Shown here in pieces: positions 24,434 to 64,000 of a DNA stretch of 64,000 nucleotides. The position numbers were made by a program, and so were the translations under genes. Position 1 is the first letter of the stretch. Every line of letters begins with the position of its first letter. The stretch lies in assembly GCA_963402885.1 (NCBI GenBank), contig OY727097.1, positions 26,281,401 to 26,345,400 on the forward strand. The letters run 5' to 3'. A model generated the notes under the pieces. The model had not been told where the DNA came from. It did not search any database and saw only the letters and a program-made list of their open reading frames with translations. Source of the DNA: Antedon bifida (Eukaryota > Echinodermata > Crinoidea > Comatulida > Antedonidae).

Positions 24434-26211
24434 TTATTTTAGTTCCTGGTATGTTTTTAGATAACACAGGGCTGTATCGTAGCAAAAGTTGTACTGGACC
24501 TAGAATACAAACAAAAACACAATAATTTAGATGGTAATTTATACAAACAATTTTGCAATAACAACATGTCAGAAAGTATTATCTTACAGACTTTAGATGA
24601 AGAACAAAATTTACCTCGGAGTCCACCATAGTAGGACATGCTGACCTCAGTGCTTTAAGTGTTTGAAATACATCCACTACCTTGTCATCTTGCATTTTCT
24701 GAATCACTGAATACACTAGGCAGAATAATCCAGATCTACCAACACCGTCTCTGAACAAGGAGAGATACAGTCCATAAGTTTTTTTTTCTAAAAAAAAACA
24801 CTAGCATCTAAAACAACATCCAATAACAGTAAAACAACTGCTATTGCTCACGTTGTCTAGTTTTCGTTGAAATAATATATACAAATAATTAAGAAATAAA
24901 TAATAAGAAAGACATTGCTTACCGCGGCGTTTCAGGCCTATATATATGTCTAAACAACTAACCAACATCATTGCTCTTTCACTTCAGTTTGTTTATACCC
25001 ATGCATACATTATAAAAATAAACTTAGGATGAATTAGTGTTATCCGAACACTTTGCAATTTCTTTCTGGCTATTTTACTTAGTAATAGTATCGTGTTGAT
25101 TTAGGTTTTTGTTTTTTTTATATCTTTATTGAGATGTAACACCTTATTTTCTTTGTCAGTAATTTGCTGTTGGATCTATGAAAATAAAACTGAACTAACA
25201 TCGTTTCAGATACTAATTGATATTCCTCTTTATTTTGGTTATACCTACCTGCAATGAACAGTGATTGGTGATGACGTAACGTTTGATCGCTGCTTTATTG
25301 TCATAATAAATTTAACAAATGCATCAACTTCGGGAACAGGTTCGTGTATTGGCCATTGGTTAACCTCATACAGAATGATTCGTCGTTCTGCTTTAGCCTT
25401 AAAGAAAATATAACTAGTATTATTTAATTATTTGTACCGGTATATAGTGAACCGCCATCACCTCTAATGAGTCAATACAATATAAATCTAAAATTTAGCT
25501 TTCATTGCTGATGATGACATAAACACAAATTTAAAACAACCTTTTCTATAATGATTTTTGTCTTGGTCAAAAAATCGTACTGATGCGTTGATTTGATAGT
25601 GACCGTAAATTCACCAAATGTTCGTCTTTGTTTGATCTTATTTGGGAGGTACACTGCACTCGTCAGATCTTCCATCTCATTTAGTTGTACAATGACGTCA
25701 GATTTATAGTCAAATATCAAACGCCAGAAATCGACACTAGTGTCATCAGCCAATGGGGTCCGCGTAACGATATAAACACGATTTTTCTTGCAATGCTAAG
25801 AAATAAAATGAGTAAAAAGCAGGACAGTTATTACGCAATCTATGAATATTGTAAGAGAACATATTTTGTATCATTTGAAGCGTAATAAAAGATATCTTGG
25901 TCATGTAGTTACCGTAATAAACGAAGCGTTAACATAATCATCATCACTGTCAACTTCTGTACTGAAGCAATCGTTTGTTACTAAAACATGAACATACTTA
26001 TTAGTAAACACGATCAGAGATCTTATATCACCTCTTGTTATTACTGTTTATATATATATATATATATATTTATTTTTAGCATCTAGGCCTACTTTCCAAA
26101 AAACATAGATTTATTTAACTTACAAAACAAAACATCTTGAGATTTGTTTCCATCTTGTCGTATGTGTCCATGTGACGTAAGACAATCACGTGGAAACAAG
26201 CTGTTTAAAGT
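24434..26211 (-). other. PTP domain 2, Cys retained, WPD Asp lost
   Basis: Landmarks: DDYVNASFIT, DTSVDFWRLIFDYKSDVIVQ, EVNQWPIHEPVPEVDAFVKF, PITVHCRDGVGRSGLFC, VVDVFQTLKALRSACPTMV and the end VQYNFCYDTALCYLKTYQEL before TAA. The signature loop has both Cys and Arg, but the WPD loop is WPI and the usual YWP motif reads YLP. The loop HCRDG resembles the second domain of CD45-like receptors. Weak or no activity is expected. Confidence 0.88.
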
Positions 26212-29200
26212 CTAATTAAAAACAATGTCCAATAATTAAGTTATTTTGTTTTATTTATTTATTTTTTTTATTTAGATGAATTTAAATTATTATTACCTTT
26301 AGTTGGTATTCAAAAACTGTTTTCAATTTGTGGTTTTGTATTATTTTTTGTATGTCACCCACGGGAATCACAGTCTGCCCACAGAACCACTCTTCAAGTA
26401 GAACTGCATAGATAAATGCATACTGCTCCTATAATACGAAAGAAAGATTACCATTTCCGTGTTTTTTAAATTAAATTCATATAGATAGATATCGGAAAAC
26501 AAAACGAATGTACAATAATCAATAATGTGACAAAAAGCACGAAAAGACAAAAAAAGTTTTAAAAAGTTTTAAAATACCAGAAAACACAATACAAAATAAA
26601 CATATAATGTAAAAAGAACATTGAAGCTGAAAGAAAAAACGTTGAATTTCATTAATTTCTTTAATTAATAGCAAAAGTTAAAATAAAAAGTTGAAAAATA
26701 GCATAATATAATGCAATGTAAAGAAATAAAAAAACCTTTGTTTGAACTGTTTGGATACATTTCTGTCTCATGCTTCGTACAAAATTGAACACATCTACTT
26801 TCATTTCTTTTTCTGACATATCCAACATGGCTGCTATAGCTATCATGGTTCCACTTCTACCGGCTCCTGAACTATTTGACATAAATTAATACGTACGTTA
26901 TTGTATCTGTCATTCAGTTATAGATTTCCTTAAGTGTATACAATTAACATTTTTATGACATTGTAAATAGAACGTCTGGTCTTCTTTACATGCCAAGAGG
27001 TTTAGCCTGCCCCAACTGAAATTTGGCACCTTTTTACAAAATATTGGAAGATCTACAAAAACTTGTAAATGCGATTTTATCTACATACCTGTGTACGATG
27101 ACTGGTCCACTTTCTGTACCAACATTCAGTTGAGTTTTCCTAAACTGTTTGATGAAATCAAGCAGGTGCGGGACTGTGCGGGTAACACTTTTGTCTGACC
27201 ATTCAGTAAAATGATACTGATACACATTATGGATCACATCATCTTCTCCAACCTTTGAGAGAAGCAACTTTTTAATAGATGCTTCCCGGAACGCGAAAAT
27301 CGCTTCCGGTGACAGCACTCTTTGGCTCAATAATTCCTTAAATAATTGATTGCTACGTGAATAAATCCTCTCGTTAAGAAACCTAAGATTACTACGTCTT
27401 GTTCTGCTTTCATTGGAAAATTGAATCACATTTGCTTAGTATTTTAATGAGTTCATATTGTCTAATAACTTTCCAATCTTTTATGCTAAAGGTAGGTCTA
27501 TTAGTTGTTTTAGTTTGTAATTGTAGTTTTGCGTCAGGGAGTTGAGTAATTTGATGTTTTTGCCCTACTCTGACGTAATTTGTACTTTATACTAAGTACA
27601 TTTGAGAATACTTGCGAAAAAATTCGCAAGTAGTTCTCGGGTGGGACTCGAACCCACGACCTCCAGATCACTAGCCTGGCGTTCATAGCTCTAGACCACC
27701 GAGCTTGCGCTGATGGCTAGTGGTTAGATTCGAGCCCAAGTAAGCAGCGGGTACTGCATTAACAGGATTGTAATTGTAGTTTTGCGTCAGGGAGTTGAGC
27801 AATTGTTTTAGTTTAGTATTCGGATGTGTCAAGTTAATTATTCGTACTAACCTCTAGGTAAAATTATTCTTACCTGTTGAATTTTGAAGTTTCGGAGGAC
27901 ATAGTACCTGTAATCAGTTTCTTTGACGTTTGTTAAAAGAAGATTTCCTAACTCTTTAGAATGGCCTAAGTCTGGCCAATACTTTTTGCACTGTTGCTGT
28001 AATACAAACAGATAATTTAAAAACTGTTATAATGCATTTAATCAAATTAAAAAGCTAAAATTAATAACTTCGACACTGGGGCCAACTAGGTAGGCTCATC
28101 TCCAACTAGCAATCGTGTTCGATAAGATCAGTTTTATTGATTATCTGTAATGTTAGACTGACAGTCCTATATTGCCAATCGTGTTGTTCTTTAGCAAAAT
28201 CCATACTGATGTTGATATGAAAGGTTTAGGTCTATTTGTTGGAATATTGTTGTTATAGTGTAATTGTGTTCAGGAATAGTGTTGGGGTACTGTTCTGGTA
28301 ACAAAATATAACCTGCCTGTTTTCCTTCAATAAGATTTGTAATCATGATGACAATTCTAGACTTCTCATTCCAGATCAGTCTCCACATATCGTTGATTGA
28401 ATCAAATGTAGGCCCTACATACCGTGATATAAAATGAATGTGAAGTCCATGTTATCATTCTGAACCATATTAACAGATAATAATTTTATTATTTTAGGTT
28501 AGGTCTAGTTCAACACCAATTCACTTCCATACAATGCTACACATTTTGAAACAAAATGGATCATAACATCACAATCATCAGCTCGCATAACTAATACAAA
28601 TAATGTATGTTATTGACATTAATTATAAATTAATTCAGACCCGTAGAGTCTTAAGTATTTGTTATTGCCTTTTAAAAATATTATGGTCGGACATATTTTT
28701 GAAATGACGTGGTATGTATGTGTCGCTTGTTGAAATATGACAATCAAGATAAACATAGTGTTTACCGTCGCATGCAATAAATTCGCGTGGTGTACACCAT
28801 CCCTACAAGAAAAACAAAATATTGTTATTGTATACAAACTGCTTCTCTAAAACATTGTGTGAAGTATTTGATTGATAAATTACACAGAATTTCACATTCT
28901 GCACATTCTACACATAGAACCAATGTAGCGTTGTCCCATATCATAGAAATACATCCGATACATTAGATTTTGTGCATGATGGCTGCCAGTCTTACATCAC
29001 CACTAAATTAAATAATTACAATGCAATAAATAGAACATTACGTTAACATCAGACAATTTTGAACCATGTCACCACAATATGCCACTGAAAGAAATAAAGT
29101 TAGGTAATCGATTTATTGAGCAAACAATTATATCTTCTCAACTACGCCTTCATAAAGCAACTTACATCTACATACGAGGCATTTATATTTTCCGATCCAG

Positions 29201-32200
29201 GAACAGTATCAAGCTTGTTGTCATCAAACTCCTGTTGGGATTCCTAAAATAATATGAATGGAAATATTACTGAGGATACGATGAATCATGACATTTTACT
29301 CCTGTCGTAGTTGTGTACTCGTTGACAGATTTGATTCAAAACAAAATTATTATATCTCGTCACATCTACATAAAGATCAATTCAATCAGATGAAGGAGGC
29401 ACTTTAAGGAAGAGATTTGGCTTGGATCCAAAAATTAATTTCTTTATATCGTTCGTTAGTAACAACAACCAAAATATACTGTAGAAAGTTATAACATAAC
29501 GTAGCGTACCTTAAATTCTTTCTCAAAACCATTTTCAATGCTTAATTGGCGCATCATCACATATTCATGTAACTTTGATACCTTAATTGTGTTGTAATCA
29601 ATGTCTGCGTTGTAATACAGAGGTTCAGGTTCCCGTTGCGGTACAAGGTCAGTATCTATGTAGATGTGATTTTCGACAGCAGGACCATTTTGAAAATGAT
29701 CTTTAATAACATGCTGTTCATATTTTGTAGACACATTTTGATAATCTGTATCTATGTTTAATGTGTTTAAATCCGATTGATTAGTTGAAGAAATTGTTTC
29801 TTTTTTCGAAATAGTTCGTCTAACAGAAAAAAAAAGTAAATGGACTTTTAATAGTTAGTTTTAAATAATGTAGGCCTACTTTCAATTGTAGTGAATTTAG
29901 AGTAATACACTACCGTTTAAGAATCATCAAGATAATAGCAACAACGATAAATGGAACAAGCAGTAAAAGCCATGCTAAACCTGAAAAATATAACATTGCA
30001 ACAACCTTTATTAAAACACGGTGTGTACAGCACAATATGAACGCGTCCTTTACAAAGGACAATTTTGTAATTTTACAAGAAAAAGAAATTCTTTTTTAAA
30101 CAATACTACATTTCACTTTTTGTATCATTTTCCAACATCCGAGTCATCCGCTACATAGAATTTGGGAAAATATGATTTTGGCATTAGTCCTACCGAATGA
30201 CCGGTTACAATTTGTTCCAAACATAAATATATTTGTGTCAGGTGTCCCATGAACGTTTAAGTATGACGCTAATACTGTGAAGGTATATTCTATACATGAC
30301 TCTATTCCTTCGTCAAATACAACTTCAGTTTCTGTTGTGTTTCCTTGTTGAAATAATCCATCACCTGACAGTTCGTAATGGTAGGTCACATGATAGTCAC
30401 ATGTAGAAGCATTCCATTTGATAAGCAATGATCCATTTCCAAATGAAGTGCTTTTTATTGATGGGTGTGATGGCACTAAAGAAAAATTAAATTAAATAAG
30501 TATTGAAAATTAAATAGCGAACTTTCTAGTTAAATGTAAACCAGTGTAGTCATGCAATGTTTTGCTTTTAGTTTTGTATTTGTTTTCTTTCCTGAAGACA
30601 GACAGTCGGATTAGGCCTAATATTTGTAAAAATAAAAACATTGTGAGCTTAAATTGAACAAAATGAAAATCCCCCGCTGGTGGCACTGTTACAAAATATT
30701 TATCAGCTTTTTAAGCTTTACAGATAGGCTTACACTAACCTATCCCCAGCGTTATAATAACAATTAGAATCATATTAGCCTACTGAATGCGCTGTGTGTA
30801 TCGTTCAGTTCCCAATTATTAGAAATCTCCTAAATTTGAATAATTACCATTTATACCCGATGGCGCTGTTTGTACCGCTATATTTTCTCCCCAATTACCA
30901 GCAATCTCCATGTTATTAACAACTCGAGCGTATGCGACATAATCGGTACAACTTGACAATCCTGATAGTTCAACTTCTAATTGAGTACTACTTGATATGT
31001 TGACTATATCTTGTACGTTTCCATCTATGTCCGAGTATTGCACTTGATATCGGAGAATTGAGTTGCATTGTATTCGATCATACTCACTAGAAACTGGCTG
31101 AAGATAATATAAAGACTTATTTAATTAGGCGTAGTTTGTTATTTAATATAATAATTGTTTGAAATAAAATAAGATGAGTAGACACGAAAGGATTACAGCA
31201 AACCTTTTGGGATACAGGTAAATGCATAAACAGACTATAGACTTACCTTTAAACTTAAAACGACGTGGTATTCTGCATTAGCTTTCAATTCTATCCCAGG
31301 TTCTTCCAAAGGTTCTATATTATGTCAAACAGATAACAGATTTTAATTATAATACACATACACTCCATTGTTGATGCTTATAATGGTTATAACATTCATT
31401 AGATTCACTATACATAACTGACCTGAACAGATTGTGATTGTTGTTCCAAGTGCACTTCTTGGTCCATCTACCTCAATACCCCCAACCATCCTCGAAAATT
31501 GAGAGTAGAATTGATATTGCATATTTGGAGTGAGATTATCAATAACAATAAATAAATGGTTATCCGGTTTAATTATCGATATAAATGAATCCATCTGAGA
31601 TGATTTAGGCCTATATGACAACTTTCGATTTGTAATTGTTCCTGTTCCAAAGTTTTCACCAAGAACCCAAGTGACGTCAAACGTTAGAGTGGTTGCTGCC
31701 TGGTTTACAATATTTGGCGGTTCAGAACGATACGGTAATGCTAATTTTTGTAACAAATAACAAAATAGAGTTATGTTTACTAGTTTTAAATTATTCGAAT
31801 AACGGAAGGCGTCATTTTTAAAATTGAGCGCAAAATTGGTGCAGTTTATAAGTCTCTGTATGCGGGAATTTCACTGGTAATATTGAATATTGTATGTTCT
31901 GTTTAAACTGTACGGGTTATTGAAATGTGGAATCTTATCGTGATTAGGTTTTCATCAGCATGGTAGGGTTTGACCTTTCTATATCCAGTTGATATTAATT
32001 ATTTTTTTTTTTTGTATTCGGTTAGTAGAAAACAGTATTAAAAATAAAGATTCCTCCAATTATAAATATTGCTTTGGACATGCAAGCAATGATAGGTTCT
32101 TAAGACTTTTTTTGTTTCAGGTCCTTTCCTGTTTAAAGCAATATTACTCGCTATACTCATTTGTTAATTTGTTTGTAGTATGTTTCAAGAAGATAATTTT

Positions 32201-35200
32201 TGTGTGTGTTTTTTTCTTTTTGGGGTATTCACACACATGTAATCTTTCTTTTCATTTTGTATATGACATAACATGAAGAATTAAGTCATTAACATTAAAA
32301 TAGTAAAATAAAAATTGAAATTACATATAGATAGATATATAGGATTTTTAGTAGTCAGTGGGTCAGTGAACATTTTTTTAACCAAAGACGTTATTTTTAA
32401 GTAGGCCTACGTCTAGAGCATGTTTTTTTCCTGCTAAATAAATGAACGTGCATGCCAACCTGTGCTGCATGTTGGTCCGTACCAAGCCTCATGGCATCCA
32501 TTAGAACACCTTCCATCTCGTGTACAATCTGCAGAATCTTTGCAATGACATGGAAAATTACATAAATCACCAAAAAATCCAGACGAACAAAGTATAGGTT
32601 CTATAAAAAAATGATTTGCACAAAAATACATTGTTTTTATATAATGCTATATAATTCATATTGTTTGATTGGACGATTGCGGGTCACAATAGCGAGTGTG
32701 CAATAGACTTGGACCAAGTCTGTATTTTATTGTCTTTTTTATGTCATTCCACACGTCGTCGTTTTGATTTTTGTCTGAAGTATGAAACGCCACATGTGCA
32801 AAAATATTTATCTTTTTACTAGTATTAAGACAAAACTCCGTCTGGAGCCCAGACTAGTCGTGCAATAATACGTACTGTTAAACGATCGCGTACTAAAAGT
32901 AATGGTATTTAAAAAAATCATGCACGAAACAAAAGTATGTTTAAACAGTTGTTTTACGGGAACACATCGATTGAAGGTAAAAATTCATATTACTGTAAAA
33001 ACAAAACGTAAAATCCATTCATACCTAAACACATATTACCAGTGTAACCTGACGAGCATGTTGAGCCGGAAGTACATCCTTTATGTGGATTACAATCGAC
33101 AATGTCACAATGACATGTTTGACGACAATCCGCTCCGTAGAATCCAGCCTCGCAAACTTAACAAAAACAGGTTATCATGTTGTACATCGAATACCCGGCC
33201 TATTTTTTTATTTTTTTTTTTGAGTGACAAATTATGTTTTATCAATATATCTAAAATTGTTTAATGTTTTTGGTTCTAAGAATTAGCCCACCAGTTAATT
33301 GGTTTCTTGTCTTGTCATTAAGGTATGATTGTTAATCTATCTTTATTGTCTAACATTTCTGACATGTGTACATTCACCAATAATCTATTATTTTACAACT
33401 TGTTTTCAATATTCTATTCTCCTACTATCTATTAGTCCACGAAGCAAAACAAAAGACATTTAACTCATACTTTCACTTTTAAAATAATATAGAGAAACAG
33501 GGATGACTATTAATAATAATTAAAATATGGTGTACTATAGCATTGACCTAATTATGGTAATAAAAACGTAAGTAACCTTTTTTACAATCGTTTCCTCCAA
33601 AACCATTGATGCACGTACAGCCAACTGGGTCCGGTGGACACAACAGAGCTCCTTTGCAATTTCCACCAGTAGCACACACAACGTTGCAGTCACGACCCAA
33701 GTTGTTATTTTCACAACCTATCGCAAATAGAGCACATGACATTATATTCAAAACCATGTAAATTATTTACACCATACAGTATATTATAATAATTAAATGA
33801 TTACCGTTTTTGCAAGTATCGCCTTTAAATCCTGCTGGACAAATACAGACACCCGTCTTATCGCCACACACTCCGCCATTATAACATACTGGACAGTCCA
33901 TTTCACAGTCTGGGGGATTCCATTTTGATGAGGAACAAGCTAATACATTGAATAATAAGTAGGTATAAAGAATAACATAAATCATGATTCATAAATCATA
34001 ATTATATATACCATAAATCTGAATTGGAATAAGGACACAAATGTTATAACATAATTAGCTTACATTTCTGAATGTGACCATGCCCTAAATTTGTCTTACT
34101 TTGACAGTCTATATCGTGCCTGCTTACCTGGATAAACCCAACATTAGCCCTTTTCCACGAAGTGCGAAACAATTATGAAAAGAAGAATTTTGCGGTAGCT
34201 CATCTCCATGATAAATGGGGCAGTCCGTTATAGCGCCCTCTCGTGGGACCACTCCCACGTAATACTGTAACCTTCCACACTAATCCTGCTTTTTATTTAA
34301 TTATTTATGTTGAATTGTAAACAGTGTACAGAAACAGAAAGTTGTCGTAATGAGAATTTTTTTATTTAGAAAGACACGGGGTTATTTGACCAGTATTTTT
34401 TAAATCTAACTCTTCACAAATTGAAATTGTTTACAGACCATGTGTTTTCATGTGTTTTCCAATTCCCTATACTAAAATCGTTATTATTATATTTATATTA
34501 ACATTTATAATAAATGAATGAACAGTTCGCAACCTACCTCTGACAATAAGTCTCATGATGCCACGGTTATCATCCGGGCTATCACCTGTATAACATTCAT
34601 ATACGCCATCATCTTTCATCCGTATGTTATCGATCACAGCAGAAGTACTACCCCTCAGATTGTGTATTTCATCACCGTAATTATGTCTCCAACGTAAATC
34701 GTTAAGATCACTTCCTTTACTGAGATTGATAGTGACAGACTCTCCAATACTGACTGTTATCGTTCTATACTCCATTGCAATAGTGGCTGTGAAATAGTAA
34801 TATTAAAGCATTAGCAATGTTGTGTAATCAATCTCCTATGAATAAATGCATTTGAATCGATAGCAAAATATAGGCCTCTAAGCAAAATTACATTATATGC
34901 CTACTCACCAGTAGAGGATCCTAAGACAATTGCGGTGTTGGCGACTTCTCTACCTTTCTTTGCTTCAAATGAAAATACACCAACTCTCTGGTATCGTAAT
35001 TTAGAAACGCCAAGAAACGTAAGATCGCTATGTATTTGGTATATAATTCGGCTTCCTGTGTTAAATATATTGCCGTCTGGCATACCTTTATATTTCACAT
35101 CACCAGTATTATTACCCGAATACTCGGTATCGTCCCAAGTCAGGTTACTCTTCCCAGGAATAGTCTTGTATAGTATTCCGACGGATAAATCTCTGATATC

Positions 35201-36414
35201 ACTATCGTTTTGAAGTGCGTATCCTCGAAACCAGGCCCTCCTTTGCGACCATGGGCTACCCGAATATAGTGTTACATCCAATGGATCTAAAGAGTATGGA
35301 AAATATTTATATAAAAAATAATAATAACGTACAGTTATTCTCAGCTTACAACATTAATCCTTCAGTCTGTCATAACAGAATCTGAGTAATGTATGCTTTT
35401 GTTTGAAAGCTTTCTTCTGAATATTAACGTAGAGCTTAATAATCTCTTCATTCTTTATTCAATAATAAAAACATTAAAAATGTACATGTCTTCCAGAACA
35501 AATGCAGGAATAATATGGTACTCATTTAAACACAAAAACACACTAAACAATAAAATAATAGTTGAAAACATTATTAGCTGAGTAGGGAACAGTTCTCCAC
35601 ATTATGCCTAGAATTCCAATATATACCAATAAACACATTTTTAGTCGCGTGCAAACGCGTCTCTATAGCTCACTATGTCGGTCGGTAGGTCGGTCAGTCG
35701 GTCGGTCGGTAGGTAAACACTAATTCAAATTTACACACGCCACTGCAGCCAAGTATTATGGCCTTGTTTTTCTTAGTGAAGGACAGAATTTCATTTTATT
35801 GATTTTAAAAATCTACGCGTAGGAGTCCAGTCTCCTACTACCTATCTCCACACATATTAACTTATATGAGAAGGCTCTAGTAGGAAATTAGGGTTCCACC
35901 CCTGAGGTACAATTAAAAATAATAAATACAAATAAAAGTATGTCTTACCGGATCAGGTTGTTAATGTTTTCAAGCATGTCCTATGGGTTACTTTTGACCC
36001 ATTTAGTTGACATGTTGGATTTAACAAAATAAACATTTTTTGCCATTTCTTAGGAAGCAGAGGTCGTAGAAATATGATTATTTATTAAAGTACTCACAGT
36101 ACGTATGTTTGTGTATACGATTTAATGGCAGTTTCTCGCGCAAAATGACCTTGCTTTTAAATGGGGTCCATATCTCAATAACCGATATACATTGAATTTA
36201 ACAATTTACTCTCAAATTGTATATATATATATATACAAAGCTTGGCCAAACTGACAGCAAAAATGGTATTTTTTACACATGACATAATTGTACGATTATA
36301 TTTATTATTATTTTAACCGTTTAGCTTACCTGCTGAAGATTCTAAGGGACAGCCAAAACAGATAATTACTATAACCAAGTAACACAAGTTTGACAAATAT
36401 TTAATGAAAAGCAT
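24434..36414 (-). CDS. Tie-type receptor with two phosphatase-like domains
   Basis: Exons from the start: 36330-36414, 34909-35286, 34538-34786, 33805-33939, 33577-33717, 33025-33156, 32460-32600, 31423-31740, 31247-31314, 30857-31097, 30194-30475, 29914-29980, 29510-29819, 29166-29243, 28766-28802, 28317-28414, 27874-27996, 27089-27252, 26736-26871, 26297-26428, 26124-26211, 25913-25980, 25541-25786, 25249-25397, 24615-24750, 24434-24499. The sum is 4,068 nt, 1,355 residues, frame closed. Order: signal peptide, N-terminal domain, Ig, four EGF, three FN3, membrane helix, juxtamembrane tyrosines, PTP D1, PTP D2. All introns look GT-AG except the one after 28317, which only keeps frame with a GC donor. 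Both PTP domains lack key catalytic residues, so activity is doubtful. The start ATG opens a good signal peptide. Confidence 0.9.
26049..26070. repeat. (TA)n microsatellite
   Basis: About eleven TA units in an intron between D2 exons of the phosphatase-tailed receptor. Confidence 0.9.
26297..29243 (-). other. PTP domain 1, catalytically degenerate
   Basis: Recognised by ENINASYVD, TPREFIACDGP, INDMWRLIWNEKSRIVIMIT, KKYWPDLG, YQYHFTEWSD, GPVIVH and the closing EQYAFIYAVLLEEWFCG. The signature loop reads H-S-S-G-A-G-R-S-G instead of H-C-x5-R-S/T-G: the nucleophilic Cys is Ser and the loop is one residue short. The KNRY substrate-recognition segment is absent from the spliced product. The WPD loop reads WSD, so its Asp remains. 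In canonical two-domain receptors this first domain is the active one. Confidence 0.88.
27517..27804 (-). mobile_element. tRNA-like SINE flanked by about 36-bp direct repeats
   Basis: tagttttgcgtcagggagtt occurs at both edges (about 27526 and 27779). Between them the minus strand holds agctcggtggtctagag (A-box-like) and a perfect T-arm-like gtgggttcgagtcccac. The acceptor stem pairs only in part, so a working tRNA gene is unlikely. A related tail (ccctactctgatgtaat) recurs near 56970. Confidence 0.65.
29510..29980 (-). other. Transmembrane helix and juxtamembrane tyrosine segment
   Basis: 29914-29980 encodes LAWLLLLVPFIVVAIILMIL followed by KR. The next exon carries NIDTDYQNVSTKYEQH, then HIYIDTDLV and PLYYNAD, and ends in the helix that precedes PTP domains (KLHEYVMMRQLSIENGFEKE). 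The DYQxxSxKYEQ stretch recurs in the tail of the paralogue at 46251-56755. Confidence 0.9.
30194..36414 (-). other. Ectodomain of the phosphatase-tailed receptor
   Basis: The signal peptide (MLFIKYLSNLCYLVIVIICF) is on its own exon. The N-terminal domain (34909-35286, 126 residues, no cysteine) is followed by the Ig exon (34538-34786; DDGVYECYTGD, one conserved Cys) and EGF exons at 33805, 33577, 33025 and 32460. FN3-1 is 31423-31740, FN3-2 is split over 31247-31314 and 30857-31097, and FN3-3 is 30194-30475. The block MRLIVRGACSSSKWNPPDC then CICPAGFKG, and CPPDPVGCTC in EGF2, match the order seen in vertebrate Tie1/Tie2. Most exons are phase 1-1, which favours exon shuffling. Confidence 0.88.
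35638..35772. mobile_element. AGTCGCGT repeat family, diverged copy 1
   Basis: Starts ttttagtcgcgtg, continues tctatagctcactatgtcgg and a (TCGG)n-like run, and ends atggccttgtt. It lies in the first intron of the phosphatase-tailed receptor. Confidence 0.8.
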
Positions 36415-37172: not shown

Positions 37173-37986
37173 TTAGCTTAAAAGTCCAATCACAAAGCCT
37201 ACATTGTTTTCTAGTTCAGTGGGAGAAGTGGCAACGGGATTAATATTGTTATATTCAATTTGATTGTCCAATTTGGTGTCGTCATAGACAAGATCCGGTT
37301 CAGGCTTTGGTAAGCCTACATTGTTTTCTAGTTCAGTGGGAGAAGTGGCAACGGGATTAATATTGTTATATTCAATTTGATTGTCCAATTCGGTGTCGTC
37401 ATAGACAAGATCCGGTTCAGGCTTTGATACAGTGTTTTCGAGTCCAGTAGGAGAAGTGGCAACATGCTTAATGTTGTTATATTTAATTTGATTGTCCAAT
37501 TCGGTGTCGTCATAGACAAGATCCGGTTTAGGCTTTGGCTCTGTGTATACGGGTTCAGCAACGGAAGTGGCAACATTAGACTTAACATTTTTATATTCAA
37601 TTTGATTTGCTATTTCGGTGACATTACATACAGGACCCCGTTGAGGTCTTGGTTCTGCATATATGTGTTCAGTATTGGAATTGGTAAAATTAGACTTACT
37701 ATTTTTATATTCAATTTGATTTTCTATTTCGGTGACATTACACACAGAACCCCGTTGAGGCTTTGGTTCTGCATATATGTCTTCAGTATTTGAATTGGTA
37801 ACATTAGACTTACTATCTTTATACTCATTTTGATTTTCCAATTCATAGACATGATCAGATTCATGGGTAGAATTAGGAATTCTATACTGATATTTATAGT
37901 CCAATTCGGTGATATCATAAACAGTATATGGTCCCGGCTCCGATTTTGTTGGTTCCGCAGAAGAACTGGGTCTCGTGTGTCCAAAC
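37173..37986 (-). other. Tyrosine-rich repeat tail exon
   Basis: Repeats of about 37-39 residues carry paired tyrosines. Early units have IYAEPKPQ or IYAEPRPQ (pYxxP type) plus IEYKNS/IEYKNV (pYxN type). Later units have LVYDDTELDNQ followed by IEYNN. At the DNA level the last two units are nearly identical with a 117-bp period (anchors 37201 and 37318), so the array is still expanding or being homogenised. pYxxP fits Crk-type SH2 domains and pYxN fits Grb2-type; this is motif inference only. Confidence 0.9.
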
Positions 37987-43900: not shown

Positions 43901-44114
43901 AGAAGATGTCGCCAATGGTTTTCCGGTTAAAAATGTTACATCCAATGGACCTTTAAATAAATAAATATTTAAAATTATTTGTATCTATACTTACAATTTG
44001 TTTAGTTGTTTGATTACTTGAAAAATAACAGAACAAGTAAAATTAATTACTTAGTCTGCACATTATTTTTAGTCGCGTGGACGCGACTCTATAGTTCACT
44101 ATGTCGGTCGGTTG

Positions 44115-44177
<63 letters not shown>

Positions 44178-44682: not shown

Positions 44683-44757
44683 TTCGACCACCAGTTCCAA
44701 TCCTATGTTCAGTTAGGCCTCAACATTCAGTATGACTAGCAGTCTTCAAAGAGTCGT

Positions 44758-46025: not shown

Positions 46026-46250
46026 GACATAACATAATAGTTAAAGAATCCATGGACAAAGGTTGTTTGCAAGTTATAGACGTCACATGTAGTAAAATAA
46101 ACAAGGAAGTATTTTACAGTGAATGAGTATTTGTGTAGTTTACAGTTATTTATTAATTTCTATTGTAGGCCTACGTGTTTAGATTATTAGGTATAACCTA
46201 ACCCTCATTATACTAGCTATTAATTCTGGTGAAAATGTACATGAGTGAAG

Positions 46251-52200: not shown

Positions 52201-55200
52201 ATGAATAATTCGTTAAAATAATTGACATAATATGGGATATTATAGAGGGCGATATATAAGCATGCAGAGAGATTAAATAATTTGTGTAAACATCGTTTGC
52301 CAACCGAAATGTTTGGTCTAGTGGTAAAGGCTTTTAGCCTATTACACTGGAGCCCTCGTTTCGAGGTCTTTCAAGAATATGGTTTTTTTTAATAGTTGAG
52401 AGAGATTATTTAGAGGGTTAGGTTTAGTATTTTTAAGTAGATCAGCAATCTTGCAATTCTTTATAATAGAAAATAATTAAGGTAATTAATTATTCATGAT
52501 TTCTGCCTTAAATTGCATATGAACAAAAATAATGCTTCCCGATCTAGCATTCGATAGTGATTTACGATGGATAAATTGAATGAAAATAGGTGTGGTTTTC
52601 AGTTTTAGCAAAAAAATACTTGCAAAACTTGCCCATTTTAATTATATCGAGTAGGCCACTCTACTGACTACATAACCCATGCATCATACACTGGTGTGGT
52701 GGTAGGCCTACAGTAATTCTTAAAAGTTAGACATAACAATATAAGTTTTATGATTTTACAATAATTTGTAATAACTTTAGATATTACATTAGACATTTAA
52801 GCTTACGTCTCTCACGTTCTTGGAAACGCAACGTTAATTTATAATATATGACTAAACATTGTTTATATGTAATACTACTATGCCAGTATTGTAGTTTAAT
52901 TTAATATTTTAATATTACAATATAAAAACTAGTTTCCTAAATATATTATGCTTTTAAGAGTGTGAGGTTTTATACCCAAACACCAATATCCCAGATGAGA
53001 ATTTATACTATGGAGCAGATTGTCGGCAAAAATGTAACTGTGCCAATGACGATTGTAATCAAAGTCCAACAGTAACCAATACAGACATAGGATGTACTTC
53101 CGAGTCAACATGTTCATCTGGTTACACTGGAGACAAGTGTCTAGGTAGAATGATCATGACGTAAACATTAGATCATTTATAGGTCCATTGTATAATATTA
53201 ATTCAAATTAAATACTATTTTTTCGTGCATTACATTGTAAATTCATAATTTATAATGTACTTTCATTTTTTTATTGACTCACTTCATTTCCACAAACACA
53301 AAGCAAAGTCAATAGACCACCAATTGTGACAATAATACAAAACAGGTTCTCCAATATTAATATTTGAACATGTTTAAGTAACAAAAATGCATGCATATTA
53401 TCATTTTCAAAAGCAATATATTTTTTCTATTTAAAAGTGATTAAACCTACCATGACCAATGCATGTTTTTTTTCCTTTAATGACATAGTGTGATTATTTA
53501 ATTCCACTTGCTAACACTTAATCTGATTTCAAATTGTACAAATTTAGTTTTCTTTTCTTAGAAAATTATTTCATATTAATTATCTGTTTGTACAGAGCCT
53601 ACGTCATGTTCATCTGGATTCTTTGGTGTTTTGTGTAACTTTCCATGTCACTGCAAAGGCACTGACGATTGTAATCGAGATGGAAGTTGTGCTAATGGAT
53701 GTCATGAGGCTTGGGCTGGTCCAAACTGCAGCAAAGGTAAAGGCAAATGTAAGCCTTATAATGAATATCACATATTGTATAACATAGTTAGTGTCCCGTT
53801 TTGCTTACTTCTGCTTATTATTAGTTTAGTCAAAGATCTGATATGCGATCTTTGGTTTAGGCCTAAATAGCAAACATGAAAGCAAACTTTTATATGTTTG
53901 TACTGTAAGTGTGCTTTGTTTTTATAAATAGCAATGCCGTACCGCTCTGAACCGCCAACTGTTGTAAATAAGACAGCAACCACTCTAACGTTTGACGTCA
54001 CTTGGATTCTTGGTGAAGACTATGGAACAGGAAAAATTACAAAACGGAAGCTTTCGTATAAATCGTCGCAAATGGATTCATTTATATTAATAATTGAAGA
54101 ACAGAATAACAATTTAATTGTTATTGATAATCTCACCATAAATGCAGACTATCAATTCTATTCTCAATTTTCGAGGATGGTTGGGGGAATTGAGGTAGAT
54201 GGGCCAAGAAGTGCAATTGGATCAACAAACACCATATGTACAAGTAAGCAGAAATGTTATTGAGCAAACTGAACACTATTAGGTTACCAATGTCGGTAAT
54301 ATTAATTAGTAATAGATGAGTGAGTGGCCGAGTGGTTAAGAAAGTGAAATCGTAATATATTATCCTAGTATCTGGGTTCGTTTGAGGCTCACTCTCGCTC
54401 CGAACGAGTCTTCTCGGATAAGGACTATAAACCGGTGTGGAACTTACGACGTTGAAGATTATTAGAACACAGCTTTCACAGTATGACGTAATAATTTTAA
54501 AATGGTCCTACTGTTCATCCTACGTATTCTTTTTTTTCCGTATGACGATTTACTATTAAACTGTTCTAAGTACTATGTAGTACTATATTTATTTTATTTT
54601 TTTGTAATGTAATTGATGTTACTAAAATAATTCTTGGCCATCTGCAGAATCACATGACTATAATAATTATACTTGATTCGCTGAGTTCATAAACCTCGTA
54701 AAAACTGGTCTGACTTTAAAAAGTTTCTCTACTGGTCTGCACTGACAAACTGAAATACATTTCTTGCTAAACTCGAAGTTTGCTCAAGTTTGTAAGCTAA
54801 AGTGTGCTAGTGTTATATACATAATGTATGTGCATTTTTATTAATTAATAATATTGTGTATTAATAGAACCTTTGGTAGAACCCGAGATAGAATTGAAAG
54901 CAGTTGAAGACAATCTGGTCATCTTGGGTTTAAAGGTAGTACAGTAGTTCAAATAACATTTTAGTTGTTTTAATTTCACACAGTTTTATTCTACTGTAAA
55001 AGATGATAGAAAAAAACTAAGGGAAAATTGCCGTTTAACATGTTTATTTTCATTGTACTTATATCCATTCAAGCGTTATTCTGCCGCAATAAAGAATATG
55101 TATGTTTAGTAAATTATGAATAATTAACCATTATTATAATCATAATAATTAATTTATATCATCATAATTATAATTGAACGGTGTATGTATATGTTTGTAG

Positions 55201-56755
55201 TATATTGATTTATATCCTTCGGTATTCACGTTAGGCTGTTTCTTATTGCGTCTCACTCAGTTCAACCATAGAAGAGTGATCTTCCATGGCTCAACTTACA
55301 TCATCAACATCTTAGATTTGTTTTATTTCACAAAACAACACAACGGCGAACTTTGTTTGTCTGACATGTAAAAAAAGTTATTTTAGTCTTCCGTACTCTT
55401 TCAATTAATTTATTTACTTCTATTAAACTACATTCAGCCCGTTTCTGATGAGTATTATCAAATCCAATGTAACCATATTCTTCGATACCAAGTGCAATAC
55501 GCGGACATAGATGGAAATGTACAAGGTATAATCAACACAACAAGTAGTTCTCAATTAGAAGTTGAACTATCAGGATTGTCAAGCTGTACTGCATATGTCG
55601 TCAACGCTCGAGTTGTTAATAATATGGAGATCCCTGGAAGCTGGGGACAGGATTTTACTGTACAAACAGCTCCGTCAGGTTGGTTCAATCACAACGTTCT
55701 TTTACATAGCCTTTTACTTTTGTTGCAAAACAATAATTACAGTGTTCCATTATTATAATACTTATTTTAAAATTAATTTATTCTGTGTTCCAATAATAGA
55801 ACCATCGATAGAAAGTACTCCATTCACAAATGGAACACATTTGCTGATGAAATGGAAAGCTTCTACGTGCGAAAATCAGGTGACCTACCTTTATAAACTG
55901 TCGGGTGACACAGTTCAGCAAGGGATAACAATAGAAACTTCAGCAGCATTTGACTTAGGCATTGGATCAATTGAAGGATATACATTCACAGTATTAGCGT
56001 CATATTTAAAGGTTAATGGAACACCTGACAGCAAGCAAATTATGTTTGAAACAGATTGTGATAACCAAGGGTGCTCAAACCAGACACAAGGTGTGTAACA
56101 TACTTTCCATAAGTTATATTTAGAATTCTATTTAGAATGGGGCTTACAAACAAACGTTTCGTCAAGACGCAACTGCGCGTCGCTCCGTAGAAGATGATAT
56201 GCCCACATGGACAAATATTCAAAAATGATACGTATAAAAAATGTGTTCTTTTATATTTTCCAGGTTACGTAATAAGTTTTGTAATTGGCTCAATAATTTC
56301 GGCCGTTATCGCAGTTGCTATCGCTTTAATATTAAAACGGTAAAGTAAAGTTTGTATTGTTGAAAATAAGACACATTTAATTCGATTGTTTCATATTTAA
56401 CCGTATTTCCAACATTAACTACTGAAAAAACAACAAGACATTTTGTCCGTTTACACCCATTAAACGATGATGAAATACAACTACTAAACCTTTTATTACT
56501 TTTAGGTTTAAACATTCAGAAAAGGACGTTGGTAATTCCTCTACTGCTCAACCCAATGTATGCACAATAGATACTGATTATCAAACGTTGTCGAAAAAAT
56601 ATGAACAAAGTGCATATGAAGATATTATGCCTACTGATACTACTTCTTCTGCTGAACACGTTTACGCAAACCCCGAGGCCGTACTGAAACACGTTTATAC
56701 AGAATTGGAAAAGAGAGAATACGAACCAGTAGTACCAAAGAAAAATGTTCTGTAG
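46251..56755 (+). CDS. Tie-type receptor with short ITAM-like tail
   Basis: Exons: 46251-46335, 50016-50390, 50513-50761, 50917-51051, 51542-51685, 52959-53144, 53596-53736, 53932-54243, 54868-54935, 55438-55678, 55800-56090, 56264-56339, 56506-56755 (TAG 56753-56755). The sum is 2,553 nt, 850 residues, frame closed, all GT-AG. Signal peptide MFAKPFPNCIGLVISLAFSS, N-terminal domain, Ig, four EGF, three FN3, helix VISFVIGSIISAVIAVAIAL, then an 83-residue tail. The tail has DYQTLSKKYEQSAYEDI, in which YQTL and YEDI are eight residues apart, then HVYANP and HVYTEL. EGF3 is longer than in the minus-strand paralogues. Intron 1 (3.7 kb) holds LINE remnants, a TIR element and a truncated family 1 MITE. 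No phosphatase exon is seen after the stop. Confidence 0.9.
46445..46625 (+). mobile_element. LINE reverse-transcriptase C-terminal fragment
   Basis: Frame reads IVRPIIEYAVPAWLPYKK, then ALEQVQRRMTK and YERRLNVL, the usual pattern at the end of non-LTR retrotransposon ORF2 (RPxLEYxxxxWxPY, LExVQRRxxK). Both ends are lost. It lies in intron 1 of the ITAM-tail receptor. Confidence 0.8.
47745..47880 (-). mobile_element. LINE ORF2 extreme C-terminus, opposite strand
   Basis: The minus strand encodes RLFVPRSNRKAGENVFSVTA followed by PRIWNALPVDLR. The FSVxxPxxWNxLPxxLR pattern is typical of CR1/L2-like and related LINE ends. The orientation is opposite to the fragment at 46445, so these are separate insertions or a rearranged one. 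Confidence 0.8.
48045..48225. repeat. About 20-bp tandem repeat (cacaattaaagaagaaat)
   Basis: Purine-rich array with alternating aattaaagaag and aaataaagaag variants, roughly nine units. Confidence 0.85.
48837..49406. mobile_element. 570-bp element with long terminal inverted repeats
   Basis: Left end tagttggggagccagaaatg, with tagcaaactatgccaacaat further in. The right end is the inverse (catagtttgctagagggtgc ... ctggctccccaacta). The inverted ends span about 60-70 bp and TA sits at both outer edges. The AT-rich interior has no transposase frame. It is a nonautonomous DNA element, possibly Tc1/mariner-type by the TA. Confidence 0.85.
49945..49996. mobile_element. Short TIR element, family 1, 3' remnant at a splice acceptor
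   Basis: gacgtcatatcactacacta then gtttgaaagtgtagacagagcTTAA. It ends about 20 bp before the acceptor of the exon at 50016, so it supplies part of the branch-point region of that intron. Confidence 0.8.
50016..50390 (+). other. Conserved cysteine-poor N-terminal domain (unnamed)
   Basis: About 125 residues on a single phase 1-1 exon, present in all four receptors (also 34909-35286, 43573-43950, 59188-59568). Shared motifs: WFRGYAL (or similar), LSVGILYKN, a W(D/N)DT with downstream Tyr, MPDGKIF, and RVGVFSFEAK. The absence of a cysteine pair argues against a classic Ig fold. I do not recognise a named family. Confidence 0.7.
52165..52535. mobile_element. TIR element with internal tRNA-like sequence
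   Basis: The left gcattattttt...tatgcaattaaggcagaaat and catgaataatt are mirrored on the right (aattattcatgatttctgcc ... aataatgc). Near the middle, gtttggtctagtggtaaagg looks like a tRNA A box with a degenerate T-arm (ctcgtttcgag) behind it. This is either a SINE inserted in a MITE or a composite element. Confidence 0.7.
54305..54490 (+). mobile_element. tRNA-derived SINE
   Basis: Strong A box gtggccgagtggttaag (Ser/Leu tRNA-like), B box gggttcgtttgag, then gtcttctcggataaggacta, a 3' module resembling one common in invertebrate SINEs. It lies in the intron after FN3-1 of the ITAM-tail receptor. Confidence 0.75.
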
Positions 56756-56771
56756 TTTAGTCAGTAGCAAC

Positions 56772-56777
56772 AATAAA
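56772..56777 (+). terminator. Polyadenylation signal AATAAA
   Basis: Lies 17 nt after the TAG of the ITAM-tail receptor, implying a very short 3' UTR. Confidence 0.6.
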
Positions 56778-58123: not shown

Positions 58124-61100
58124 ATGTTGACAAAACGTTTTCCTAACTTTGTACGCCTGTTTTTAACTCTCTGTTTGGGATATCAATTGGGATCATCAGG
58201 TATGTTTTGTGATATACAACAAGATTTATTTTGTTTTATTTAAAATAAGTGGTTTAGACCTACAGTTTAAAAACTGTTTTGTATAAAAATGTAGGCCAAA
58301 TGGAGGTAATATTTATTTTATTTTTAATCTAGTGTACCTCCATGACAGTACTTTCGTCCGATTATAGACCTAAAATTACAGTTTATCATGATAGTGTTAG
58401 AAATTGTAGTTATTGTGTTTTGAACGAATAATATGTGGATAGTCTCGTTGTAATACGGCTATGTGTCGGTTGATATAGGCAATGTCATCAAATTTTCTTT
58501 TGAAACAATTATGGTGATGGGTAGAGAAGGGACGGGGTTTACAAGCACGAAAGGAATAGTATATATGTATATCATTTTAGGTAAATGTTTGTAGTTATCG
58601 AGTCGTGGAAAGATGGGCGATTTACAAAATTCCTATTCTGTAACACGGCGTTATATTCGAGAAGCCCAAAATTCGAAGTGCGAATTCAAACATCTACAAA
58701 ACCAGTTACAAAAATATTGCACAAACACAATAAAGTATTACAGCCAATAGTATAAAAATTCTCCAAAAATGTTACAAAACGTCAATGCAATTTTCACTAT
58801 TTATTTGGTGTACTATCCCAGTTACAGTTTGTTCAAAGGATTCGGCCATTTCAGCCGTAAAACAAGGATACCATGAGATGTCGACAATCGCACTGAACCA
58901 AATAGACAGGGTTAGGCGAATTTGCACATGCCTATAAGCCCAGTATACTACATTCGCCTAACTGTTTCCAATAGGCGAATTTATTCTTCACCTAAATCGA
59001 AATTGAATTCACTATTTAGAGGATTCTTTTGTGACGGTAGGACAGCTCATCCTCCTCAACAATACGTCGGTGATTCTTTATACGTATTGCTAACTACACG
59101 AATACGTGGGCCTGCATTAATTGCTTACTTAACTTAACTGAAGTAAATGATTGATATGAAAAGTTGTTTTTTTTTTTTTTTTTTTAGATCCATTAGATAT
59201 AATATGTTTTTCTGATACACCACTGGTAACATCTAGTAGTGAGTTTCGAGGATACGCACTTGACAATGACAAAGACATTCGAGATTTATCAGTGGGAATA
59301 TTATACAACAATATTGATGGGAAAGATAATGTGACTTGGGATGATACTGGCTATGTAAGTGGAAGTGGAAGTGGCTGGCAAACGAAAGATATGCCAGTCG
59401 GTAAAATATTTCCTACAAGTAGCATAATTAGATACAGAGTATTCACAGACCATACGAAGCTAGGTGTCGAAACATCACAACAGACTGAGAGAGTTGGTGT
59501 ATTTTCATTTGAAGCAAAGCGAGGCGAAGTAATCACAAATTCAGCAATTGTATTGACATCAAATTTTGGTGAGTAATGTCATGAAGTATCTTTTGTATCT
59601 TTTTATAATTACTTCTTTGTTTTTATGGAAATTTACATTAACTATATCATATGATAATACATTACACTATAATACTTTTATAATTATTTTAGTAATACAG
59701 TTATTATTTTTCAGCCACTATTGAAATGGAGTATAAAACAATAACCGTCGGTATTGGAGAGTCTGTCACTATCAATCTCAGTAAAGGTGGTGATATTAGC
59801 AATTTACGTTGGAGACATAATTACGGTGATGAAATACACAATCTGAGGGGTAGTACGTCTGCTGTGATTGAAGACATACGAATGAAAGATGATGGCGTAT
59901 ATGAATGTTATACAGGTGATAGCCCGGATGGTAACCATGGTATCATGAGACTTATTGTCAGAGGTAAGTCTAACAGGTTTTAGAAAGTAATCGGGACTAT
60001 TTACCTTCTGAAATACCAGTTGATACAAAGAATTGTGAATTAAAAAATAATGATGAGATCAAGATTAAAAATGAGTGTTTATGATTGAAGTTCATGGTGG
60101 TGGGATTTGTGTTGTTGTCCTCGCCGGTGAATTGTTCTATAAAAATCAGTATTTAGATTTATATTAAGGTTTTTATATCATAAATATTTTATTATAAATC
60201 CGGTCTAACGGGTGAAATGTGTTTATTTTTGTTTATTAGCTTGTCCCTCACCAAAATGGAATCCTCCAGATTGTGAAATGGACTGTCCCGTATGCTATAA
60301 TGGAGGAATGTGTGACGATAAGACGGGTGTCTGTATTTGCCCAGCTGGATTTAAAGGCGCTGATTGTCTAACTGGTAATAGCATGAAATGTTAAACACAT
60401 GCATGTTGCTTTTTGACGAATGTAATTGGATCGAATTTTGAACTAAACTTGTGTTTTCAAACAGGTTGTGGAAATAACAACTTCGGTCGTGATTGCGTCG
60501 TTATGTGTTCCCAAGCCATTGCTGCCGATTGCAATGGAAATCTATTTTGTCCATCTGATCCAATTGGATGTACATGCATCAATGGTTATGGAGGAAATGA
60601 TTGTAAAACAGGTTTGTTGTAATTTCCAGTATTTGCTTTCCTTCGTCCACCCATTCTAATTTGATTTCGTTTACCTGTTCATTAAAAAAAAATTACATTC
60701 ACTTATGAACTAGTCATTTCAACATTAGAAAAAAAAACGATTAAAAGTATCTTTTTTCTGTTTGTATAACCTTTTTTAGACGCGTGGACGCGACTCTATA
60801 GTTCACTATGTCGGTCGGTCTGTCGGTCTGTCTGTCGGTCTGTCTGTCGGTCCGGTATCACTATGCGTTTTAGCACGCGACTTATGGCTGTTGGCCTTGT
60901 TAAATGTTAACATCAGTTTTTAATATAGGGTCGAGCATTCCATTTCTTCGATCTATATAACCTATAAAATTTGGTGTAATTTACCATGTCTAGTTGAAAT
61001 AGAATACTTTTTGTGTTTATTTATTTTAATTTTAGCAAACAAAGGAAAAATAAATGACAGTTACGAAAACGTCACTGAGAAAAAACAGAAATAGACAAAA

Positions 61101-64000
61101 CTGTTTTATTAATATGAGAATATAGTAATAATGTAATTTGTCAGTATTTCATTCACATTACGTAATGTCTTGAACCTATTATGTGTTTAAGCCTGTGAGG
61201 TTTTATATCCAGACGACACCAATGTCCCAGATGAGGATTTATACTATGGAGCAGATTGTCGGCAAAAATGTAACTGTGCCAATGACGATTGTAATCGAAG
61301 TCAGACAGACATAGGGTGTACTTCCGGGTCAGTATGTTCGTCTGGTTTCACTGGAGACAAATGTTTAGGTAATGTATAATTAATTTAAATTGAATACTGT
61401 TTAGTTTCATGCTAAATATTCTATATGTTTTATTCTCACTATTGTGACAAAGCTTACTAGGACGTAGTTTTGATATACAAGAATATTTTCGCAATAATTT
61501 ATTTGATACTTAGTTTAACCATAATAAGATTCCAATAACTTCGGGTTTTGATATTTTTATATACTACTTATATATACCTACTGCAGTACGTAGGTCTTTG
61601 TCTTCAGTTGACCATATTTTATTGCATCAAAATAGACAGAAATATACGTCATTTTAGAAATGTGGCTTTCTCGCTATATAATAAAAACATCTGTATAATA
61701 TAAAAAGATATTTCCATATATTCACGGAAAGAATATTTGAAAATAAGCCGATTTAGTCAATGTGGCATTTTTTTATATTTTAGACAATCAGTCAACTAAA
61801 TTGTATTAATTTTAAATGTTTGTACAGAGCCTACTGGATGTCCTTCTGGATTCTTTGGTGTTTTGTGTAACTTTCCATGTCACTGCAAAGATTCTGAAGA
61901 TTGTAATCGAGATGGAAGTTGTGCTAATGGATGTCATGAGGCTTGGGCTGGTCCAAACTGCAGCAACGGTAAATTATACTGTCACATTGTGCATAATTTA
62001 AGCCCTGTCATGAATATCACATTTTGTATAACATAGTTAGTGTGCCGTTTGCTTACTTCTGCTTATTAGTTTAGGCAAAGATCTGATATGCGATCTTTGG
62101 TTTATAGGCCTGTAGCAAGCAAAGCCAGCTTTCACTTTCAATAGGAAGAAGCTTTTATATAGATAGATAGATAATATATAGATAAAATGTTATTCGTCAT
62201 AAAATAAATAAAATTACATTATGAAAATTGTCTTCCTTGGCAAGAACATAAATATAAAAAGACCATATATAACATATTTGAAATACTTAAAAACAAATTA
62301 CACAAAAATATTTATAATATACAGCACAGGTATGAATAGTGAAGGAATCAGTATTACAAACTTCTCTTAAATCGTGAAATAAAATTATGAATAGCATTTG
62401 GAACAAAAGATAGTCTAAAACGTGAATTATTTGACCGTGGTGGTCTAACTCTCCCTGATCTATTTACAATAAATTCATTGTAAACATATGTTTGTACTGT
62501 TAGTGTACTTCGTTTTTATAATAGCAATGCCATACCGCTCTGAACCGCCAACTGTGGTAAATATGACAGCAACCACTCTAACGTTTGACGTCACTTGGAT
62601 TCTTGGTGAAGACTATGGAACAGGAACAATTACAAAACGGAAGCTTTCGTATAAATCATCGCAAATGGATATTATAACAGAAGAACAAGATAATAGTTTA
62701 ATTGTTATTGCTAATCTCGTCCCAAATACAGAATATCAATTCTATTCTCAATTTTCGAGGATGGTTGGTGGTATCGAGGTAGATGGACCAGCAAGTGCCA
62801 TTGGATCAACAAACATGATATGTACAAGTAAGCAGATAATAACAATAATAATTCATTGAGTAAACTAAAAACTATATTATGTTACCACTGTCGGTATTAT
62901 TATTACTTAAGAAAGTGAAACCGTACATAACCATGTATGTTTATAATGTACATTTTTATTTGCTGATTTCTAATCAATAACATTAATTAATATACAGAAC
63001 CTTTGGTCGAACCTGAAATAGAATTGAAAGCTGTTAACGAAAATTGTTTCATCTTGGGTCTAAAGGTATAGCAATAATTTTAAATAACATTTCAGTTGTT
63101 TAAATTGTACAGTTTTATTCTACTGCAAAAAATGATAAAAAATTCAAGCATTATTCTGCTGCAATAAAGAATAATGTATGTTATAATTAATTTATATCAT
63201 AATTATAATTAGACGGTGTAAGTATATGTTTATTATTCACGTTTCTTACTGCGTCTCACTAAGTTGAACCAGGGAAGATCACTTACAGTATCAACGTCTT
63301 AGATTTGTTTCATTTCACAAAACAACATAACGGCAAACTTTATTGTCCACGTAAAATGTACCTTATCTTTTAGTCTTCCTTCTTACTATTTCAATTAATT
63401 TATTTACTTCTATTATTCAGCCCGTTTCTGATGAGTATGATCAAATCCAATGTAACTACATTCTTCGATACCAAGTGCAATACTCTGACATAGATGGAAA
63501 TATACAAGGTATAATCAATACAACAAGCAGTACTCAATTGGAAGTTGAACTATCAGGATTGTCAAGATGTACTGCGTATGTCGCCACCGCTCGAGTTGTT
63601 AATAACATGAACATCCCAGGAAGCTGGGGACAGGACATATTAGTACAAACAGCTCCGTCAGGTTGGTTCGATAGCCATTCATATCGTTCTTTTACATAAC
63701 CTTTTACTTTTGTTGCGAAACACTAATTACAGTGTTTCATTATTATAATACTTATTTTTTTTAAATTAATTTATTCTGTGTTCCAATAATAGAACCATCA
63801 ATAGAAAGTAATCCATTCACAAATGGAACACATTTGCTGATGAATTGGAAAGCTTCTACGTGTGACATCCTAGATTATCAGGTGACCTACTATTATGAAC
63901 TATCAGGCGACAGAATATTTCAGCATGGGAAAACAACAGAAACTTCAGTAGCAGTTGGCATAGGCATTGGATCAAGTGAAGAATATACATTCACAGTATT
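58124..64000 (+). CDS. Fourth Tie-type receptor, 3' cut by window
   Basis: Exons: 58124-58199 (MLTKRFPNFVRLFLTLCLGY signal peptide), 59188-59568, 59715-59963, 60240-60374, 60465-60611, 61192-61368, 61828-61968, 62525-62827, 62998-63065, 63421-63661, 63793 to beyond 64000. Phases are continuous and all sites GT-AG. Same ectodomain: N-terminal domain, Ig, four EGF, FN3-1, split FN3-2, start of FN3-3. Closest in the cluster to the gene at 46251-56755: it shares the long EGF3 (CEVLYP..., YYGADCRQKCNCANDDCN) and a similar start exon. The N-terminal domain differs by a Gly/Ser-rich insertion (GSGSGW). Its membrane helix and tail, which would reveal its signalling type, lie outside the window. Confidence 0.9.
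60774..60901. mobile_element. AGTCGCGT repeat family, copy 4
   Basis: gacgcgtggacgcgactcta ... ttcactatgtcggtcggt, mixed (TCTG/TCGG)n, ttttagcacgcgacttatgg, ttggccttgtt. It lies in the intron between EGF2 and EGF3 of the fourth receptor. All four copies point the same way on the window although their host genes do not. Confidence 0.9.
62155..62180. repeat. (ATAG)n microsatellite
   Basis: Short gatagatagatagata run in the intron before FN3-1 of the fourth receptor. Confidence 0.85.

Follow-up and report, generated by a model that had tools for sequence, protein, structure and literature searches.

The 64-kb window analyzed here, the whole of the stretch taken from contig OY727097.1 of the feather star Antedon bifida, contains four adjoining paralogous receptor genes, designated A to D, that share one ectodomain plan; the tails of A, B and C, which lie within the window, differ (Table 1). 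Genes A and B lie on the minus strand and genes C and D on the plus strand. Gene chains were built from consensus splice sites and reading frame; in all four, the frames are open across long multi-exon chains with canonical splice sites, and the introns of gene A comprise 24 of the GT-AG type and one GC-AG. The common plan consists of a signal peptide, an N-terminal domain, an Ig domain, four EGF domains, three FN3 domains and, as far as the window shows, a transmembrane segment. Ectodomain exons correspond one to one among the genes; the introns between them are in phase 1, apart from a phase-0 intron in FN3-2 that the genes share. The signal exon of gene C was picked by donor score, hydrophobicity and by-eye likeness to the N-termini of D and of proteins from Antedon mediterranea, the feather star whose database proteins provide all numbered relatives given below without a species name. 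None of the 1785 tblastn matches to the family in the window (E <= 1e-4) fell outside these exons. The starts of B (44682, minus) and C (46251, plus) stand head to head with about 1.6 kb between them, so that a promoter region may be common to both.

Table 1. Receptor genes and parts of genes in the window. PTP, protein tyrosine phosphatase; D1 and D2, first and second PTP domains; ITAM, immunoreceptor tyrosine-based activation motif.
Feature	Position	Strand	Content	Basis
Gene A	24434..36414	-	26 coding exons, 1379 amino acids; Tie-type ectodomain, transmembrane segment, tyrosine-rich juxtamembrane segment, D1 without catalytic cysteine, D2	Splice chain, Pfam, PDB, comparison with P0017
Gene A, exons 14-26	24434..29243	-	Tandem PTP-like domains	
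Possible relic of first (phosphotyrosine-loop) exon of D1	29290..29460	-	Stop-interrupted, unusable in the chain	By eye, weak
Gene A, juxtamembrane exon	29510..29819	-	Tyrosines (IDTDYQNVSTKYEQ...); homologous to the C tail	
Gene B	37173..44682	-	13 exons, 1026 amino acids; Tie-type ectodomain, transmembrane segment, 18-tyrosine repeat tail, no PTP	
Gene B, tail exon	37173..37986	-	Tandem VYDDTELDNQIEYNNI-type repeats	
Gene C	46251..56755	+	13 exons including probable signal exon; Tie-type ectodomain, transmembrane segment, short tail	
Gene C, probable signal exon	46251-46335	+	Rest of chain 50016-56755	
Gene C, tail exon	56506..56755	+	Strict ITAM YQTL-x8-YEDI, plus YANP, YTEL and YEPV; TAG at end	
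Gene D	58124..64000	+	Signal exon and ectodomain into part of FN3-3; runs off the window end	

The ectodomain is of the Tie type. When the stretch of gene B from Ig to FN3-1 was searched against PDB sequences, Tie2 was the top chain (E 5e-35), aligning from the end of Ig through EGF1, EGF2 and EGF3, with a Tie-like EGF2. The Tie-specific Ig2-EGF1-3 module is present in this tested stretch, with which the other copies align throughout, and three membrane-proximal FN3 domains are present as in Tie2 (5utk, Tie2 FNIIIa-c). An AlphaFold2 model of the relative P0001, with a mean predicted local distance difference test score of 84.6, placed the Tie2 ectodomain (4k0v) first in Foldseek (E 1.5e-24); the TM-scores (0.33/0.49) are low because domain angles differ, and the ectodomains of the receptor-type PTPs (RPTPs) mu and sigma ranked fifth and sixth. 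The end of Ig with EGF1-3 and the three membrane-proximal FN3 domains are common to the window genes and Tie receptors (Tie1, Tie2/TEK and SpTie1/2 of sea urchin). However, the window genes have a fourth EGF domain where Tie2 has a third Ig domain, their N-terminal domain, whose exon probably encodes a beta-sandwich, is divergent, and the tails of A, B and C, unlike those of Tie receptors, contain no tyrosine kinase.

Pairwise comparison of the four copies gives identities of 0.52-0.74 for the N-terminal exon, which diverges more than any other domain in four of six pairs; in the A-C and C-D pairs, FN3-3 (0.61-0.73) stands about level with it. Ig identity is 0.84-0.88, and fourfold sites showed no special homogenization of this domain. 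Synonymous divergence (dS) between copies is 0.15-0.84, and the ratio of nonsynonymous to synonymous divergence (dN/dS) in the N-terminal domain is 0.41-0.66.

Beyond the membrane, Pfam identifies tandem PTP domains in gene A, and the best PDB match is LAR; gene A thus resembles LAR/RPTP-type phosphatases inside while its ectodomain is Tie-type instead. The D1 signature reads VIVH-SSGAGRSG, with the codon for the catalytic cysteine absent, and WSD stands in place of WPD, so that D1 lacks both the HCX5R and the WPD motifs needed for catalysis. D2 carries HCRDGVGRSG but WPI. The phosphotyrosine-loop exon of D1 is missing from the chain; for its possible relic, the best tblastn match in the family (E 4.1) was to a non-PTP stretch. 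The A. mediterranea counterpart of A, P0017, is 86% identical over 1023 aligned columns, its database model beginning only at EGF4. It lacks the D1 cysteine in the same way (VIVHSSGGGRSG), likewise has WSD, and its junction skips the same exon. Between the two proteins, identical residues number 101/106, 98/104 and 80/89 in FN3-1, FN3-2 and FN3-3, 73/93 in the juxtamembrane segment, 219/237 (92%) in D1 and 239/270 in D2. Despite its lost nucleophile, D1 falls between FN3-3 and FN3-2 and above D2 in conservation, and so well kept a domain is probably in use. By contrast with A, the D1 motifs are complete in P0003, P0163 and P0164. Both PTP domains of A look inactive, as in PTPRU, although PTPRU keeps and occludes its cysteine (PMC7320164, excerpt). 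The same excerpt describes PTPRU, with two inactive PTP domains, as still binding substrates and as a proposed competitor of its active sisters.

The tail of gene B consists of tandem tyrosine repeats with 18 tyrosines and no PTP domain. The ITAM has the consensus YxxL/I-x6-8-YxxL/I, and its tyrosines recruit tandem-SH2 kinases; YxN sites bind Grb2. Strict ITAMs occur in the C tail and in P0002 and P0017, with chance expectations by shuffling of 0.4%, 0.3% and 2.1%, respectively, and a motif scan of the A and B tails found none. Each of the three visible tails (A, B and C) is similar to the juxtamembrane segment of P0170, and B and C therefore look like phosphatase receptors that have lost their enzyme. 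The sequence-only reading of this DNA had described four adjacent paralogues with one ectodomain plan and unrelated tails, namely tandem phosphatase-like domains, a repeated tyrosine scaffold and a short ITAM-like tail. The chained gene models A to D bear out the shared outside, and the three tail types were found in A, B and C; their being unrelated has to be given up, owing to the segment that all three resemble.

Crinoids contribute 29 of the 45 closest proteins at E <= 1e-10 (14 from Antedon mediterranea and 15 from Anneissia japonica), and varied tails on the shared ectodomain recur in two crinoids. The tail types in A. mediterranea include active-type RPTP, cysteine-less RPTP, an apparently one-domain PTP, ITAM/scaffold and short; both the cysteine-less D1 and the ITAM tail are among them, the latter being the C-type tail kept with its ITAM in P0002. 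Among the retrieved proteins, only A has an A. mediterranea relative well above the 61-70% identity level of the others, and gene turnover therefore looks high. Two further relatives, P0015 and P0016, have Tie-type ectodomains without a transmembrane segment in a hydropathy scan and share a terminal EEDQRQxMKRIND segment; they are possibly soluble members or ligand traps.

Judged by sequence similarity, the family with Tie ectodomains is wide in echinoderms. A search with a Tie-like ectodomain from the starfish Patiria miniata returned 390 proteins at E <= 1e-15, from which the best 120 were taken. Among the matches listed, 29 labelled Patiria proteins comprised 12 with kinase, 10 with PTP and 7 with neither, and Pfam labels gave the same kinase and PTP sets. 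Starfish members carry database names such as Tie-1-like, angiopoietin-1 receptor-like and RPTP kappa/T/F-like. The Patiria proteins P0053 (PTP) and P0054 (kinase) are 73-93% identical per 100-residue block over residues 1-800, and past residue 800, at the membrane, identity drops to 35% and 19%; both are predicted database gene models, and annotation can fuse tandem genes. Tail changes were counted on an Ig-EGF tree and compared with 500 label shuffles. On the starfish rows (16 kinase, 14 PTP), 8 changes were counted against a shuffled mean of 10.3, and 10.8% of the shuffles were as low, so that the fit of starfish kinase/PTP tails to the ectodomain tree is little better than that of shuffled labels. 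Across all species, 11 changes were counted against 18.1, with 0/500 shuffles as low; tails do therefore track the broad lineages. Pattern matching finds an active-type loop in 30 of 39 retrieved PTP-tailed members and HRDLAxRN in 22 of 24 retrieved kinase members. The Tie-like kinase and phosphatase receptors of Patiria miniata and Acanthaster planci thus share the ectodomain module and exchange its tails, but they differ from the window genes in that many have discoidin-like domains (PF00754), FN3 repeats are more numerous, and most catalytic motifs are intact, unlike those of A. Separately, the amphioxus proteins P0092, P0097 and P0103 combine a Tie-type ectodomain with a fibrinogen C domain (PF00147), which has the same fold as the receptor-binding part of angiopoietin, and two of them also have a kinase.

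The arrangement invites comparison with vertebrate paired receptors (KIR, LILR, PILR, CEACAM, Siglec), which are likewise clustered, with like ectodomains, different tails, an ITAM in one, and one tail type apparently derived from another through loss. However, in the echinoderm family the enzyme domains belong to the receptors themselves, the window genes show no Ig homogenization, and the likeness is drawn from sequence. SpTie1/2 is reportedly expressed in sea-urchin coelomocytes, to go by the title of a cited study. A paired-receptor family is defined by similar ectodomains that signal in opposite directions, and its activating members are believed to derive from inhibitory ones (PMC3533184, excerpt). 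For opposed signaling, the window offers an inactive-looking PTP, an ITAM and a scaffold, and Patiria offers kinase versus PTP, there in gene models. In Asterias rubens, a Tie-2-like kinase and an RPTP-F-like protein, likened to the present family by name alone, were detected as coelomocyte surface candidates and are read as balancing migration cues (PMC13409769, excerpt).

We infer that paired-receptor logic is the best-supported reading of the family, and we lean modestly towards a system in which one Tie outside is set on varied phosphotyrosine-handling insides, likely on coelomocytes or other motile cells. The sequence-only reading had proposed paired immune and allorecognition receptors on a Tie-like frame. 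The frame holds, with Tie2 first both by PDB sequence search and by Foldseek, as do the ITAM and the same outside with varied inside, which recurs in A. mediterranea and, as kinase versus phosphatase, in predicted Patiria proteins; the search of other echinoderms that it had suggested returned kinase, PTP or neither in Patiria. What falls away from the interpretation is again the unrelatedness of the tails. Immune use is plausible given the coelomocyte candidates of A. rubens, and allorecognition in particular is unsupported. No domain and no pair among A to D gave dN/dS above 1.

Such a system would have begun with an ancestral receptor phosphatase whose juxtamembrane segment was rich in tyrosines. 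In some copies, the enzyme would then have been lost and the tyrosine module either kept (C) or amplified (B), and A would have kept the PTP fold and lost catalysis. The conserved Ig-EGF part may give members common ligands or make them competitors for ligands, as the N-terminal domain diverges. Ligand clustering would lead a Src-type kinase to phosphorylate C and B, whose tails could then attract SH2 proteins: a Syk-like one to the C ITAM and a Grb2-like one to the YxN sites of B. Gene A, in the manner of PTPRU, may serve as a catalytically silent decoy or scaffold, keeping substrates away from active sisters such as the P0003 type. Phosphotyrosine would thus be read by C and B, shielded by A and erased by the active PTP members. 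A broader proposal, which we advance tentatively and at somewhat less than even confidence, is that a single Tie ectodomain can stand interchangeably in front of kinase, phosphatase, pseudophosphatase, ITAM and tyrosine-scaffold tails, and that ectodomain lineages have often exchanged tails. Phosphotyrosine would then be added, removed, hidden or read in response to the same ligand, according to which sister binds it, the opposed enzymes being the receptors themselves. Among the papers listed in literature searches, none was seen to describe Tie-ectodomain phosphatases or this exchange of tails.

The genes could instead be ordinary developmental or adhesion receptors, a tandem Tie/RPTP expansion tuning adhesion, migration or regeneration, whose tails arose by neutral birth and death without immune pairing. 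In vertebrates, Tie and RPTP receptors act in development and adhesion, and dN/dS below 1 throughout agrees with such a role, as does the migration-cue reading of the Tie-2-like and RPTP-F-like starfish proteins (PMC13409769, excerpt). This account is nevertheless rather unlikely, given the varied tails in two crinoids, the ITAM kept between the window and A. mediterranea, the near-random placement of tails on the starfish tree and the apparently high turnover.

We consider it improbable that these are polymorphic allorecognition receptors, in which the N-terminal domain varies by individual and the tails decide fusion or rejection: clustering, tail variety and the divergence of the N-terminal exon in four of six pairs fit, but the dN/dS of that exon does not, and no allorecognition work on these genes is known to us, although the literature was not searched for it as such. 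Slightly less probable still is a decaying locus, in which A, B and C would derive by damage from an active phosphatase receptor and carry tails devoid of function. The missing cysteine and phosphotyrosine-loop exon of A and the absence of PTP from B and C would fit decay, whereas the open frames and canonical splice sites of all four genes, the conserved cysteine-less D1 and the ITAM-bearing tail kept in P0002 do not. Very improbable, finally, is an artefact of allelic assembly duplicates or of alternative tails of one gene; the tandem arrangement is what such an error would produce, but dS between copies reaches 0.84 from a minimum of 0.15, the genomic order, spread over both strands, gives each of A, B and C an ectodomain and a tail of its own, and the same tail types occur in A. 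mediterranea.

Should the paired-receptor reading hold, it would place an invertebrate form of this logic on a vascular and coelomocyte receptor frame, where one ectodomain serves both kinase and phosphatase, and would show activating tails arising through enzyme loss. D1 of A is a natural example of a PTP domain that has stayed conserved although its nucleophile is missing. The origins of ITAM signaling outside vertebrates and of Tie signaling would become directly testable.

The window has other features besides the receptor genes. A Ste20-family kinase gene, of the Nck-interacting kinase (MAP4K4/TNIK/MINK) type, is represented to the left of the cluster by two plus-strand exons, 2348-2440 and about 5418-5609; the latter has MAP4K4 as its PDB match (1.3e-24), and the former is known by translation. 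Self-comparison offsets point to short tandem arrays at 7153-7696, 17471-18005, 20602-21012 and 38345-38494, whose unit lengths are about 34, 110, 40 and 72 bases. Translations also point to short-unit repeats at 44046-44260, 44280-44584 and 60744-60920, which fall within B (early introns) and D: a pair of related microsatellites, and a trinucleotide run that translates as serine/alanine. The palindrome TAGGCCTA, common in echinoderm genomes, occurs at 16 sites in the window (for example, 5255-5262 and 53858-53865), against 0.53 expected from dinucleotide shuffles.
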